Below are positions 12,935-27,069 of a stretch of DNA of 64,000 bases, in pieces. The position numbers and the translations under genes were made by a program. Source of the stretch: an uncultured Acidimicrobiales bacterium (GTDB taxonomy: Bacteria; Actinomycetota; Acidimicrobiia; Acidimicrobiales; Hopanoidiivorantaceae); the NCBI GenBank assembly GCA_958295755.1, contig OY282367.1, forward strand, positions 1,120,022 to 1,184,021, read 5' to 3'. The notes under the pieces were generated by a model. That model was not told where the DNA came from, made no database searches, and saw nothing but the letters and a program-made list of their open reading frames with translations. Positions within the stretch are counted from its first letter, which is position 1; each line of letters begins with the position of its first letter.

Positions 12935-14320
12935 TTACGACTGAATTTCATCAGATCTGATATCAGGCAGATCAGCGGCCGCCTCTCGCACATCTAGTTT
13001 GCCGGTGACTACATCGGCTATCAGACTAGTGCGGTATTCCTCTAGCAGTTCAATCTCACGGCGAGTGCGAGCGATGGCTGCGTCTATATCAGATGTGAGG
13101 TTGTCTAGGTAGGCGACTATGGCTGTTTGTTCAGCTAGAGGTGGTAAGCAAGCGAATATTGACCCCAGTAGCGAATCTGATATAGTTGGATAATGCACAC
13201 CAGTTGAAATGGCTACTCCCTGACTCATTATGTACTCACTCATGAGCATATATCTAGTATATTCTGGCAATATATGTTGTCCCGGAGTAAGCACAGCAAA
13301 ACCAGTAGAACAAATTAGATCTCCATCAATGTGATCTGCGAACCAAATTGCTTGTAAATTAAATCTTACTTTTGAGACAATAGTGTCACCGACTTTAATC
13401 ACTCTACGAGCACTGGAAGGAGCGGTTCCAAACTTAACTTTGGTCGGTTTCCCAACTAGTTTTCCCGTCCCTACAGCATTAATTTCGAGATATTCAAACA
13501 CAAATTCTGGATCAGTTATTTCTGGAAGTGTCAATTCATTGATACCAAAACATTGCTTCAACCTAGACAACTCCCAATGCTCAGGAATATCCCCTAGCCA
13601 CTCAACACCAGAAGGTTTAAGAGGGACATCAGGGTCTAGCCCACGAGTAACAGTCTGCTGGATCACAGCGCGCTTGTACTCCTCCATCAGCTCAACCAAT
13701 TCTTGCTTCTGGGAGACCCCCCCCCGCAGCATTAGATTCACATTGTCAAGGTAGTCGACTATAGTTGCTTGCTCGGCTAGAGGTGGCAATGGGATAGAAA
13801 TAGATAAAATTCCAACATGAGAAAGACCGTATCTTGTCACTCCTTTGGCCGCAATATGAAATTGATATGATACTGCTTTGCTCTGCAAAGCACGGAAGAG
13901 ATAGCCTCCTAAAAGTTTGGTCGCGTCAGGATGCAACAAAGCCAAGTGATAACCAGATATGAGATCAGGAGCACTTACTGTGACAAGTGCTGGCACACCT
14001 ATATCATCCCATGTTTCAGAATCTTTGGTAATTAATACATCACTTTTCATGAGACGAAAACGATTGATTTCTTCATTAGTAGCAGTGGCATGCATAAAAT
14101 CAATATTTTCAGTAATACAATCATTTTTGTACACATCCACATAGTTACAAAGTCGCACTGGAATCTCATCTTCGTTAGAATGTTTATCAACATTGCTCAC
14201 TTGCATATCTACTACATTTCGCAAACGTTGCACTTCCCAATGCTCAGGGATATCCCCAAGCCAATTAATTCCAGAGGCTTTAAGTAAAGTTCTTTTTGTG
14301 GGAAATAAAGTAAAAGGCAT
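12935..14320 (-). CDS. hsdS: Type I R-M specificity subunit (HsdS) with internal poly-G tract
   Basis: This 461-aa HsdS has two target recognition domains. Each opens with the same W-L-G-D-I-P-E-H-W-E block (residues about 20 and 241) and closes with PLPPLAEQ or CLPPLAEQ plus a helical spacer (ELVELMEEYKRAVIQQ; EIELLEEYRTSLIADVV). It directs HsdM and HsdR to a bipartite DNA target. A run of nine G on the coding strand (13717-13725) falls at codons 199-202 (R-G-G-V) in the central spacer, where related proteins usually carry an I-D-x-x-I helix. Slippage there would give a half-length HsdS with only the first domain. The start lies 2 nt after the GHKL gene's stop codon. Confidence 0.94.
   Translation of the reverse strand: MPFTLFPTKRTLLKASGINWLGDIPEHWEVQRLRNVVDMQVSNVDKHSNEDEIPVRLCNYVDVYKNDCITENIDFMHATATNEEINRFRLMKSDVLITKDSETWDDIGVPALVTVSAPDLISGYHLALLHPDATKLLGGYLFRALQSKAVSYQFHIAAKGVTRYGLSHVGILSISIPLPPLAEQATIVDYLDNVNLMLRGGVSQKQELVELMEEYKRAVIQQTVTRGLDPDVPLKPSGVEWLGDIPEHWELSRLKQCFGINELTLPEITDPEFVFEYLEINAVGTGKLVGKPTKVKFGTAPSSARRVIKVGDTIVSKVRFNLQAIWFADHIDGDLICSTGFAVLTPGQHILPEYTRYMLMSEYIMSQGVAISTGVHYPTISDSLLGSIFACLPPLAEQTAIVAYLDNLTSDIDAAIARTRREIELLEEYRTSLIADVVTGKLDVREAAADLPDIRSDEIQS
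13717..13725. repeat. Poly-C9 (poly-G9 coding) tract in hsdS
   Basis: Nine consecutive C on the plus strand are flanked by A on the left and GCA on the right. The tract lies in the central spacer of hsdS and is in frame here. A-C(9-10)-GCA recurs in hsdM and at the LRR gene. Homopolymers of this length slip readily during replication. Confidence 0.95.
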
Positions 14321-19378: not shown

Positions 19379-21391
19379 TCACTCCTCAGACCCTACGATC
19401 TTGGTGATCAGCCCTTCGGTCTCTTGCTCCAGGGCTAGGATGTCGGCTCGGATTTCTTCTAGGGGGCGCAGGGGTTGGGGTTTGTAGAAGTGGCGGGTGA
19501 AGCTGATTTCATAGCCAATCTTGGTGCTTTCGGGGACATACCAGGCATCAGGGGCATATGGCAGTACTTCTCGTTGGATGAAGGCTTCTATGCCGCCCTC
19601 TTCTAGGAGGGGGACTTGCTCGGTATCGCGAAGGGTGGGGTCGGGTTCGTATTCCACTGTGGCGGGCTTGCCGTTGATCGTGGTCTCGAAGAGACCTTGG
19701 ATGGGATTCGGGGCGGTGTCTTTGTGAATTTTTTTGATGACGGGGTGCGTCTCCGGTAAGGTGTCTGTCTTTGATGGCATCGCACCAGCAGCCACACCCC
19801 CCCCCCGCAGTTTCTTGATTTCGCTCGCTTTGTAAACCCGTTCTGGGTCAATCCCCTCCAACCGCAACGGGCGTTCTACTTTTACTTTCCAGTAACCGAA
19901 GGCTTGGTTGGGGAAGATTTTAGACTGCTCGGTTTCTTCAAATGCCATGAAGGTATCGCAGATGCGTTGGATTTCGACCTCGCCTAGTTCGCAGTTTTTA
20001 CTACCTAGATTTTTGCGGAGAGGCTGATGCCATTGGGTGGCATCTATCAACTGGGTTTTGCCTTGGCGATGGGCGGGTTTGCGGTTGGTGAGCACCCAGA
20101 TATAGGTGGCGATGCCAGTGTTATAGAACATGTTGAGGGGCAGAGCGACTATGGCTTCCAGCCAGTCGTTTTCTATGATCCAGCGGCGGATGTTGCTTTC
20201 GCCTTGGCCTGCGTCGCCAGTGAAGAGTGAGCTGCCATTGTGGACTTCGGCGATGCGACTGCCTAGGGGCGTGTTGTGCTTCATCTTGCTGAGCATGTTG
20301 ACTAGGAACAGCATCTGACCGTCGCTGGAGCGGGTGACTAGCGAGTATTCGGGATCGTCGGCGTGGTTGATAACGAAGCGGGCATCGTGCATTGCCCTCT
20401 TGCCGCCCATACGTTCAAGGTCGGTTTTCCAGCTTTTGCCGTAGGGCGGGTTGGAAAGCATGAAATCAAACTCCATGCTGGGGTAGGCATCGTTGGAGAG
20501 AGTAGAGTGCTCGGGGCCGCCGACTATGGTGTCGGCCGCTTCACCTTCGCCTTTGAGTAGCAGGTCGGCTACACAAATGGCGTGGGTTTCTTGATTGATC
20601 TCTTGGCCGTAGAGATGAACAGAGACATCTTTATTGCGTTCAGCGGCTAGGTCGGTGAGTGTGTCTTCGGCGAGGGTGAGCATGCCGCCTGTGCCGCACG
20701 CACCGTCGTAGAGGAGGTAGGTGGTGGACTCGAGCTGGTCGGCTACAGGCAAGAAAACTAGGTTGGCCATGAGCTTCACGGCATCTCTGGGCGTCCAGTG
20801 CTCGCCTGCTTCTTCGTTATTTTCTTCGTTGAAGCGGCGGACTAGCTCTTCGAAGATGGTGCCCATAGCGTGATTGTCAAGGGGCGGATATTTGACAGAG
20901 CCGTCGGGGTTGAAGACTGGGTTGGGACTGAGGTTAATGTCGGGTGAGGTGAGCTTTTCAATGAGATTGCCGAGGACATCGGCTCCAGAGAGGCGGGAAA
21001 TCTGGCGGTTGAACTCGAAGCTGTTGAGGATCTCTTGGACATTTGGGGAGAAGCCTTGGAGGTATGCTTCGAAATCGGAGCGGAGCTGCTGCTGGTTGGC
21101 GATAGATTTGAGGTCTTTCATCCTGAACTGCGATGTGTTATAGAAGGGGTGGTCGGAGGCTGCACGGAGCGGGGCATCTTGATGGGTTATACCATTATCA
21201 TCTAGGATTCGTTTTTGCGCCAAGACATCTTCTTTGGTGTCTTCAAGCACGGCGTCTAAACGGCGCAGGACCGTCATCGGGAGTATCACATCGCGGTATT
21301 TGCCTCGCACATACAAGTCGCGGAGCACATCGTCGGCGATGCTCCAGATATAGTTGGCAATCCAGTTAAAATTTGGGGCTGATTCGTTCAT
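19379..21391 (-). CDS. hsdM: Type I R-M methylase subunit (HsdM) with internal poly-G tract
   Basis: This 670-aa N6-adenine methylase has the SAM-binding DGACGTGGML near residue 230 and the catalytic SNPPYG near 315, preceded by the helical HsdM N-terminal domain. It methylates the target chosen by HsdS. The ATG at 21391 (M-N-E-S) is preferred to an upstream in-frame ATG at 21457, because the family starts near NWIANYIWSIADD. A run of ten G on the coding strand (19797-19806) encodes R-G-G-G-V near residue 530, after the catalytic domain and before the C-terminal region that contacts HsdS. The frame is intact here. The gene is separated from hsdS by about 5 kb of inserted genes. Confidence 0.94.
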   Translation of the reverse strand: MNESAPNFNWIANYIWSIADDVLRDLYVRGKYRDVILPMTVLRRLDAVLEDTKEDVLAQKRILDDNGITHQDAPLRAASDHPFYNTSQFRMKDLKSIANQQQLRSDFEAYLQGFSPNVQEILNSFEFNRQISRLSGADVLGNLIEKLTSPDINLSPNPVFNPDGSVKYPPLDNHAMGTIFEELVRRFNEENNEEAGEHWTPRDAVKLMANLVFLPVADQLESTTYLLYDGACGTGGMLTLAEDTLTDLAAERNKDVSVHLYGQEINQETHAICVADLLLKGEGEAADTIVGGPEHSTLSNDAYPSMEFDFMLSNPPYGKSWKTDLERMGGKRAMHDARFVINHADDPEYSLVTRSSDGQMLFLVNMLSKMKHNTPLGSRIAEVHNGSSLFTGDAGQGESNIRRWIIENDWLEAIVALPLNMFYNTGIATYIWVLTNRKPAHRQGKTQLIDATQWHQPLRKNLGSKNCELGEVEIQRICDTFMAFEETEQSKIFPNQAFGYWKVKVERPLRLEGIDPERVYKASEIKKLRGGGVAAGAMPSKTDTLPETHPVIKKIHKDTAPNPIQGLFETTINGKPATVEYEPDPTLRDTEQVPLLEEGGIEAFIQREVLPYAPDAWYVPESTKIGYEISFTRHFYKPQPLRPLEEIRADILALEQETEGLITKIVGSEE
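19797..19806. repeat. Poly-C10 (poly-G10 coding) tract in hsdM
   Basis: Ten C on the plus strand have A on the left and GCA on the right, the same context as the hsdS and LRR tracts. A one-base slip would replace the last ~140 residues of HsdM with an unrelated tail. In this sequence the reading frame is open through the tract. Confidence 0.95.
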
Positions 21392-21534
21392 GTGAGTTGA
21401 TAGTGCTAACGACTGTGTTGCTATCTTGAAGACATCTAGTAAATTGCCAGAAACCAAGATAAGCCAGATTACGAGTACTCTACTCTTCTTCCTCCATCTG
21501 ATGCCGAAATGCCTGACGTATCAAACTCATAACA

Positions 21535-24835: not shown

Positions 24836-24870
24836 TTGCCTCTCGGAACAAGCATGTGGTAAAATACCAC
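24836..24870 (+). promoter_or_regulatory. Putative promoter with overlapping palindrome for the LRR gene
   Basis: TTGCCT (24836-24841), 18 bp, then TAAAAT (24860-24865) make a plausible promoter. A perfect inverted repeat GTGGTA-AAA-TACCAC (24856-24870) covers the -10 box and could be an operator. The ATG with a GAGGTG Shine-Dalgarno follows at 24903. Confidence 0.4.
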
Positions 24871-24931
24871 CACAGGCATCTACATTACCGTGAGGTGAAA
24901 CCATGACAAAAATGTCAGTCAGAGCCAGCGA

Positions 24932-24940
24932 CCCCCCCCC
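24932..24940. repeat. Poly-C9 tract controlling the LRR gene reading frame
   Basis: Nine C, preceded by A and followed by GCA, lie ten codons after an ATG at 24903 that has a good Shine-Dalgarno (GAGGTG, 5 nt spacing). With nine C the frame ends after 60 codons at 25085. With eight C the ATG would read straight into the signal peptide and LRR protein (721 aa). The context is identical to the tracts in hsdS and hsdM. Confidence 0.92.
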
Positions 24941-24963
24941 GCAATGGTTCTCGCTCGCAGGGC

Positions 24964-27069
24964 GTGCTACGGGGGTCGGCTGTGAGGAGGCCGGCAGTGT
25001 TAGTGGGGAGGCTCTTGAGGGGGTTGGGGGTGGTGGTTGCTTTGTCGGTGCTTGGTGCTTTGATGTCTGTGGTTGTGGCATCTAGCCCCGGTGGGACGGC
25101 GGGTTTCGGGTCTGCGACTAGGATTCCCCCCGCACGACCCCAACCGGGCGGCACGCCTTCGCCACCTCAGTTGCCTGATTTGAATCCTGACCTCTGCGCT
25201 ACTACCTTCATGCCTCTAGTATATTCTTCCGGAAGGCGAGATTCAAACGCTACAGAAGCTGATTGTCGCACGATTATTGCTTGGCGTAACGCTGTTGTGA
25301 ATCACCCAGGTTCCGTTATTGGCCCCAATCACCCTCTAGCACTGATAGGCACTGGCGACTACACAAGATTCGACCAATGGGCCGATACAGGTCTGGTGTC
25401 GCAGTTGTTTTATGTAGATACGAGTCAGACATTTTGGACCAGTCAGTATATCATAAGTGCTATCCATTCGCACACTTATGGTTTAGCGGGCCCGCTTCCT
25501 GGGGAACTGCCGCACTTGCGAGAACTTCGTTTGCCTGGTAACTCTTTTTCGGGGGAGCTACCTTCTTGGATATATAATCACCCAAAGCTGGAAGACATAC
25601 GTCTTCAAGACAACCGTCTAAGTGGTGAGGTGTCGGCTTTCACAGCTCCAAAGCTTGAGTATTTGGATCTAAGCGGAAACTATTTCTCTGGCAGTCTTCC
25701 AGATTTTGATACAGCTGGAATGTTCGGGCTGATAAATATTGGTTTGAGCGACAATCAATTCTCAGGGCCGATCCCGGCTAGTTGGAGTGGTTTCGCTAAC
25801 AGCGGAAGAAACCGTTTCGACAGAAAAGGAATACAGCAGCTAGATATTTCTCAAAATAATATCTCAGGAGATTTGCCCAGCTGGGTTTCCAATCTCCCAT
25901 TCCGCAACACTCCTGGCGGAGATGCATTTCTGCCGGGCTATCTGAACTTGGTTCGTATGTCAAATAACAACCTTTGTATACCAGACAGCTTTCAGATACC
26001 AGCATATAGAAAAGCTGTCCCGTACCACCGCCAGTATGCCAAGGTCCGGTTGGAGCTAGAACCCCAACAATGCTCGACTTCTAAAACCTTGATTAGAAGA
26101 GCACAGAATATACAGTTTGAGCCAGTACGCACACCCGGGCAACAACCTACCGACGATCCTGCGGGTCTCAAAGTCACCTGGAGCAAACCCAGCGGTATGA
26201 CCGGGGCAGTAACTTACCGGGTACAACTGTTTTTGACTACAGACCAAGAAGTTATCAGGGGAAGTGGTAGAACATACGACAAATACTGCTATGGGCACTT
26301 TTTCTGGCAAGTAAATGTTGGGCCGTTAGCTACGGCGAATCTTGAACGCACAGTAACTCGCAGTGACTGTAGTGTAACAGACACGCGCACTATTTTTGAC
26401 CCCACAAAATACACCGTAGATGTCTCAGTGTTGCTGAAAAATCAGCAGACAACTTATGTTGGCTCAGCGACTTTCTCAAACGCTTGGAGCGTTTTCACAG
26501 CCGATAACCCTCAGAAAACATTCCAGGACGTAGCCAACATAATACGCCTGCCCTTCCAGCGCAGCATCTGGATCTGGGACGCCACCAACCAAATCTGGTT
26601 TGAGAGAAGCCAAGACCAACCAAACTTCGCCACACTCAACCTGCAACCAGGCGACTCACTAGCATTCCAGCGAACCGTGCCTGTCTCCTGGCTAACTCCA
26701 GCAGGTCTCAGCACAGCAGATGAAGACACCCCCGTCCAACTCCAAAACGGCTGGAACATAATCAGCGCAGGTGCCGTTGCCGCCCGCCCCCAAAACAACA
26801 ACGGTGCCTACTTCATAGACAGCAGCCTCGTAGTCTGCGCCTCCCTACAAGGAGTCATCGCCATTATGCGCTACAACTCCCAAACAAGACAATTCGACGC
26901 AGAGTTGCCATGTCACCCACGAGCAGAAGCCAACCTAACACGCACCCCAGCAATCGGCACCATCGACGATCTAGAAGAAGCCGACATACTCTTCATCTAC
27001 TTCCAGACAATCATACCAGTCACTATCCAATGGGACGCCGACAATGACAAATACATGCCAGTCTCTTGA
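24964..27069 (+). CDS. Secreted leucine-rich-repeat protein, predicted phase-variable
   Basis: The open frame encodes 701 aa from a GTG at 24964. A signal peptide follows an Arg-rich start (VVVALSVLGALMSVVVASS). Residues about 160-330 hold plant-type LRRs of the L-x-G-x-x-F-S-G-x-L/I-P form (LRELRLPGNSFSGELP, LEYLDLSGNYFSGSLP). Residues about 375-500 resemble a fibronectin-like fold, and the C-terminal 200 residues are of unknown type. No membrane anchor or sortase motif is visible, so it may be released or held by its C-terminus. The GTG has no Shine-Dalgarno; the better start is the ATG at 24903, which is out of frame by one base because of the C9 tract. The gene may therefore be off in this sequence. 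Confidence 0.82.
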   Translation: MLRGSAVRRPAVLVGRLLRGLGVVVALSVLGALMSVVVASSPGGTAGFGSATRIPPARPQPGGTPSPPQLPDLNPDLCATTFMPLVYSSGRRDSNATEADCRTIIAWRNAVVNHPGSVIGPNHPLALIGTGDYTRFDQWADTGLVSQLFYVDTSQTFWTSQYIISAIHSHTYGLAGPLPGELPHLRELRLPGNSFSGELPSWIYNHPKLEDIRLQDNRLSGEVSAFTAPKLEYLDLSGNYFSGSLPDFDTAGMFGLINIGLSDNQFSGPIPASWSGFANSGRNRFDRKGIQQLDISQNNISGDLPSWVSNLPFRNTPGGDAFLPGYLNLVRMSNNNLCIPDSFQIPAYRKAVPYHRQYAKVRLELEPQQCSTSKTLIRRAQNIQFEPVRTPGQQPTDDPAGLKVTWSKPSGMTGAVTYRVQLFLTTDQEVIRGSGRTYDKYCYGHFFWQVNVGPLATANLERTVTRSDCSVTDTRTIFDPTKYTVDVSVLLKNQQTTYVGSATFSNAWSVFTADNPQKTFQDVANIIRLPFQRSIWIWDATNQIWFERSQDQPNFATLNLQPGDSLAFQRTVPVSWLTPAGLSTADEDTPVQLQNGWNIISAGAVAARPQNNNGAYFIDSSLVVCASLQGVIAIMRYNSQTRQFDAELPCHPRAEANLTRTPAIGTIDDLEEADILFIYFQTIIPVTIQWDADNDKYMPVS

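Follow-up and report, generated by a model that had tools for sequence, protein, structure and literature searches.

A C9 tract as a probable translational on/off switch of a secreted leucine-rich repeat protein gene in an uncultured Acidimicrobiia bacterium, and the replication-strand polarity of long C/G tracts in its genome

Here, we describe a nine-cytosine homopolymer (C9) in the gene of a secreted leucine-rich repeat (LRR) protein, located in a 64-kb stretch (hereafter, the window) of contig OY282367.1 from an uncultured Acidimicrobiia bacterium whose genome consists of a single 2,292,181-bp contig. Named sequences closest to the CTP synthase of this genome come mostly from Acidimicrobiia. 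Five-digit positions refer to the window, and six- or seven-digit positions and those in kb or Mb refer to the genome. We consider it probable that this slippage-prone tract, which lies after the true start ATG 24903 and ahead of the LRR protein's signal peptide, serves as a translational on/off switch and that the genome was caught in its OFF phase. In the proposed mechanism, translation would begin at ATG 24903, upstream of the slippable tract. With 8 C (or 5 or 11), the ribosome would read into a 721-aa preprotein (ON), and with 9 or 10 C it would stop within 60 codons (OFF), so that the sequenced genome would be an OFF-phase snapshot of the LRR gene. The locus would be one of a large genome-wide set of switches comprising surface LRR, prepilin-like, and restriction-modification genes. 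Four points are inferred: cells of the population differ in tract length, translation starts mainly at ATG 24903, nothing is produced in the OFF phase, and the product is exposed at the cell surface. The locus is very likely a homopolymer contingency locus of a known kind, with actinobacterial precedents in which tract-length variation was measured (PMC9187656, PMC11287997).

The initial annotation had placed a Shine-Dalgarno sequence and a plausible promoter ahead of ATG 24903, and both were found (Table 1). GAGGTGA precedes the ATG, and the sigma-70-like TTGCCT-18-TAAAAT is the sole such site between 24600 and 25200, where shuffled sequence yields 0.3. The 5′ leader predicted from this site begins ~30 nt ahead of ATG 24903, and the C9 tract begins 29 nt past the start of that codon. 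Scanning of tract lengths from ATG 24903 gave 721 aa with 8 C, 60 aa with 9 C, and 27 aa with 10 C, bearing out the annotated stop at 25085 with nine C and the complete LRR protein with eight. The absence of a ribosome binding site at the in-frame GTG 24964, also annotated, agrees with a duplex energy of only −2.2 kcal/mol. Thus, as in contingency loci, a homopolymer of about 8 or more lies in the 5′ coding region, and a one-base change makes or breaks the frame.

Table 1. Features of the LRR locus, the other long tracts of the window, and the close LRR paralogs. Paralogs are designated by genome positions.
Feature	Position	Strand	Remarks
Promoter-like site TTGCCT-18-TAAAAT	24836–24865	+	TG before −10 hexamer; consensus match only
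Shine-Dalgarno GAGGTGA	24892–24898	+	Spacing ~5 nt to ATG 24903; −7.0 kcal/mol
ATG 24903 frame at nine C	24903–25085	+	60 aa; stop TAG 25083–25085; putative OFF phase
C9 tract	24932–24940	+	Proposed switch by slippage; at 8 C, ATG 24903 is in the LRR frame
Secreted LRR protein open frame	24964–27069	+	701 aa from GTG 24964
AGGAGG (24985–24990) and in-frame GTG 24997	24985–24999	+	Ahead of signal peptide; possible tract-independent start; −11.5 kcal/mol
Signal-peptide-like segment VLVGRLLRGLGVVVALSVLGALMSVVVASS	24997–25086	+	Judged by eye
G9 in sense, hsdS (gene 12935–14320, −)	13717–13725	−	Between two target-recognition domains
G10 in sense, hsdM (gene 19379–21457, −)	19797–19806	−	C-terminal part, codon ~550 of 692; in frame
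LRR paralog	398404	+	G9 between upstream start and signal peptide; out of frame
LRR paralog	400674	+	G10 between upstream start and signal peptide; in frame, 721 aa
LRR paralog	403012	+	G9 between upstream start and signal peptide; out of frame
LRR paralogs	410779 and 413176	−	C10 between AAGGAGGA and GTG start
LRR paralog	matched at 413506–415431	−	No tract
LRR paralog	417872	−	C10 directly after signal peptide; out of frame

Next, the number and placement of long C/G runs were analyzed. Run lengths in the window were C5 33, C6 2, C7 0, C8 0, C9 2, and C10 1, the two other runs of at least 9 being those of hsdS and hsdM in one Type I restriction-modification cluster. Dinucleotide shuffles of the window contained a mean of 0.42 C9 9-mers compared with the 4 found, a number reached in 2 of 100 shuffles, and base composition alone is therefore only a moderate argument against chance. 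The length histogram argues more strongly. Across the genome, 62 runs reach a length of at least 9, only 7 are of length 8, and 77 are of length 7 (44 of the latter in a CRISPR-like array and 33 elsewhere), and the 57 tracts whose lengths were measured included 29 of 9, 18 of 10, and 6 of 11, with a maximum of 14. Long tracts also clustered at gene starts: 33 of 57 runs of 9 or more lay at most 200 nt from the start of an open reading frame (ORF), compared with 78 of 315 runs of 5–6 taken from the same stretches (p = 2.5e-6; one tract was counted twice owing to the overlap of two stretches). At 51% G+C, codon usage was too weak a score to show coding ahead of the tracts, and a phase test was used instead. 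This test took tracts that separate a possible start from a gene of 150 aa or longer, with tandem relatives included; the upstream frame was in phase with the gene for 16 of 29 tracts in this genome and for 13 of 25 in G001, a sister species, giving a total of 29 of 54 (p = 0.0016 for an expectation of one third). Genome-wide, long tracts are enriched over shorter runs and tend to lie at the 5′ ends of surface and restriction-modification genes. The CRISPR-like array (50.4–53.5 kb) consists of 44 exact repeat copies containing GTTTCGGGGGGCGGTCAGCCCCCCCTTCATTGAAGA with a period of ~72 bp, and one of its spacers contains a G10.

The LRR protein matched Pfam families above their curated cut-offs (in parentheses): LRR_1 at 49.7 bits (20.6), LRR_8 at 32.5 (27), and LRR_4 at 29.2 (27), with LRR_1/LRR_8 repeats near residues 180–310 of the 701-aa protein. 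Single-sequence structure prediction of this protein gave a mean predicted local distance difference test score (pLDDT) of 35.5. Its C-terminal region is common to the paralogs and to very large ORFs, and a Pfam search of the shared C-terminal 220 residues gave no match. Those very large open frames, of 20,112, 14,266, 8,809, and 6,868 codons (at 841921, 183–209 kb, 1656684, and 219–230 kb, respectively), carry LRRs or this C-terminal region, in a genome of 2.29 Mb.

Seven close paralogs at 398–418 kb share 34–52% identity with the LRR protein of the window, and six of the seven carry a C/G run of their own, placed at one of three sites around the signal peptide and in mixed phases. The family is seen in both putative phases: 400674 is in frame (ON), and 398404, 403012, 417872, and the window gene are out of frame (OFF). 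Homologous upstream peptides (MSIQAIEE...) precede 400674 and 403012 and differ in length by an in-frame 12 bp. In sense, the window gene has a C tract, and the 5′ end of this gene does not align with the paralog 5′ ends; its tract was therefore probably gained independently of theirs. In G001, it is the signal-peptide core of LRR-family genes that holds the tract, in frame in some genes and out of frame in others, so that an internal start could not rescue secretion there. The paralogs and the remainder of the genome give good support to on/off control by a slippable tract as the putative class of mechanism.

How far the window gene itself is silenced depends on internal starts. We regard it as unlikely that the protein is made from the internal GTG 24997 (or GTG 24982) at any tract length, with the tract altering only an N-terminal extension or the amount; still, a group of observations speaks against the proposed switch. 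GTG 24997 follows an AGGAGG at a spacing of 5–6 nt with a duplex energy well beyond that at ATG 24903 (−11.5 vs −7.0 kcal/mol), and the signal peptide stays whole when translation starts there. Several sampled G-sense tract genes likewise have an ATG a few nt past the G-run, the run itself being Shine-Dalgarno-like. Moreover, the nine codons from ATG 24903 to the tract were too few for a coding test, and no close relative of the 5′ end was found. A search of genome contigs with the LRR protein found no relative, which left no orthologous tract of this locus for comparison. The initial annotation had overlooked GTG 24997. Of its claim of an on/off switch, the class of mechanism stood. Its argument from a missing ribosome binding site applies to GTG 24964 and fails at GTG 24997, whose Shine-Dalgarno sequence is stronger than that of ATG 24903 and whose signal peptide is complete, so that the LRR gene is likely, though not certainly, switched off at nine C.

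Against initiation at GTG 24997, the G-rich region past the C9 tract abounds in Shine-Dalgarno-like words, with many later in-frame starts scoring −9 or better. Since such scores are common across this 5′ end, the score of GTG 24997 calls for caution and is not proof of initiation. In addition, the promoter-like site lies ~30 nt ahead of the Shine-Dalgarno sequence of ATG 24903, and the tracts of paralog 417872 and of the G001 LRR genes, inside or after the signal peptide, are beyond rescue by an internal start. In predicted folding, GTG 24997 was unpaired at 0.89 with 7–8 C, 0.66 with 9, and 0.37 with 10 or more; rescue from this codon in the OFF phase is thus weakly disfavoured by an accessibility predicted to fall as the tract lengthens. 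Pairing of the mRNA was also considered as the main switch and rejected, as the predicted accessibility of the 24903 Shine-Dalgarno sequence and ATG (0.34 and 0.38) was constant across tract lengths. Another objection to the switch is that the nine C may be an assembly or consensus error, in which case every cell would have eight C and the gene would simply be on. Although long-read consensus is error-prone at homopolymers of 9 or more, we hold this to be very improbable: this assembly preserves open frames as long as 20,112 aa, in-frame tract genes exceed chance, hsdS and hsdM are in frame, and correction of one tract length would leave the set of 62 tracts standing.

We then analyzed the strand orientation of the tracts, for which the leading strand was assigned from the position of dnaA and, in most sampled stretches, the sign of GC skew. 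G was on the leading strand in 60 of the 62 long tracts, and the orientation flipped at dnaA and near its antipode. The C strand was − at 52–931 kb and 2.077–2.263 Mb and + at 930 kb–1.996 Mb, and the last + and the first − tract lie on either side of dnaA (2,036,810). When the terminus was taken to be opposite dnaA, at its antipode (0.891 Mb), 59 of 62 tracts agreed (p = 9e-15), or 31 of 33 when counted by clusters (p = 7e-8); with the flip set at 0.932 Mb, 60 of 62 agreed. The two exceptions, at 931609 and 1973664, are both near the borders of the blocks. The bias was absent in shorter runs (13 of 33 of length 7 and 2 of 7 of length 8). On the leading strand, the flank consensus was C-Gn-T, with C before 39 and T after 36 of 52 tracts with unique flanks. 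In G001, tract pairs on the same contig agreed in orientation in 62 of 69 cases, which none of 20,000 permutations reached. In G004, a more distant member of the order with 12 tracts and an origin that was not located, no replichore polarity was apparent by eye.

A GnT hotspot is known in Salmonella and Pseudomonas, where T changes to G after a G run, more strongly on the leading strand (PMC12344412), and the C-Gn-T flank fits its context. MutS was not found in this genome. NucS was found, and indels are not corrected by NucS (PMC8228993). We tentatively suggest that DNA replication, and not the coding strand, sets tract orientation in this genus, and that a leading-strand GnT process and a lack of mismatch repair able to correct indels may jointly give rise to the switches and sustain them, selection retaining those at 5′ ends. 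We infer this hotspot as the origin of the tracts with the caveat that it should also consume the flanking T. The strand bias, the flank, and the published hotspot would also suit a tract that is a mere by-product of a leading-strand process lengthening G runs before T, without selection for switching at the LRR gene. This explanation appears quite unlikely to us, as both the enrichment at 5′ ends and the kinds of gene concerned (surface and restriction-modification) speak for selection to retain the tracts; a mutational by-product and selected switching are, however, compatible ideas. The replication-strand rule is most likely the most surprising part of this analysis, the LRR locus itself belonging to a known kind, and it would tie a known mutational hotspot to the way in which contingency loci arise, a point that is seldom addressed.

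The closest known case is the G-tract switch of sortase-dependent pili in Bifidobacterium breve UCC2003 (bbr_0113 and bbr_1889; PMC9187656). As in the LRR locus, the host is an actinobacterium, a tract of ~10 bases parts a start-bearing upstream ORF from the downstream frame, the two frames are fused or separated depending on tract length, and a surface structure is concerned. Tract-length mixtures and pili were measured in B. breve, whereas the LRR locus is known from sequence alone; it also differs in its C-in-sense tract, its LRR gene, and the possible internal start GTG 24997 with AGGAGG. According to the available part of a report on Gardnerella (PMC11287997), which belongs to a different class of Actinomycetota, genomes there hold a median of ~20 G/C tracts with a length of at least 8, which lie within surface-protein and methyltransferase genes or ahead of them, with 9- and 10-bp variants among colonies; our host genome has about three times as many, and leading-strand polarity is not reported in that part. 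Poly-G tracts in Campylobacter are of length 9 in 53% and of length 10 in 26% of cases (PMC6321876). The length peak at 9 and 10 and the location mostly in ORFs are common to both genomes, but in our host both tract senses are common and the orientation follows the replication strand.

The sampled tract genes encode mostly secreted LRR proteins, a prepilin-like family, and restriction-modification enzymes, with a few others; the restriction-modification genes encode HsdS, HsdM, Type ISP enzymes, and several DNA methyltransferases. This lineage of Acidimicrobiia probably has a large set (tens of loci) of phase-variable genes, and our literature search found none described for it. The gene classes suggest that the cell surface is under strong, fluctuating selection by phage or host. 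In the window, the G9 of hsdS is in frame as sequenced, and one base fewer or more truncates the protein at ~210 aa. The hsdS/hsdM cluster is likely a phase-variable methylation system. Phase-variable Type I restriction-modification through an hsdS with a central tract is known from Neisseria NgoAV; similarly, slippage in the window hsdS would, as read from its sequence, leave one target-recognition domain.

Further tract genes were observed elsewhere in the genome. In the prepilin-like family (RGITLQTLIVTAVLVLVAVGAALV), tracts lie in an unusually long leader and are mostly in frame; seven tract-bearing copies are within 12 kb, and there are others. The family was seen at 926–943 kb, at loci L054 and L061, and, in G001, at loci L165, L169, and L178. 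Type ISP genes at 282–286 kb and ~1095 kb have several tracts of 9–11 at the C-terminal specificity end, where slippage would swap C-terminal sequences. A ribonucleotide reductase gene (1254894) carries C9 and C8 in its 5′ part, in frame, just before the ATP-cone, which would be odd in a probably essential gene unless an ATG past the tract serves as the start. Finally, a solute-binding-protein gene (1891531) has a C11 in its leader, ~20 nt ahead of the ATG, and a C9 run precedes a phosphoenolpyruvate carboxykinase gene (305443); both tracts are possibly transcriptional or leader-length switches.
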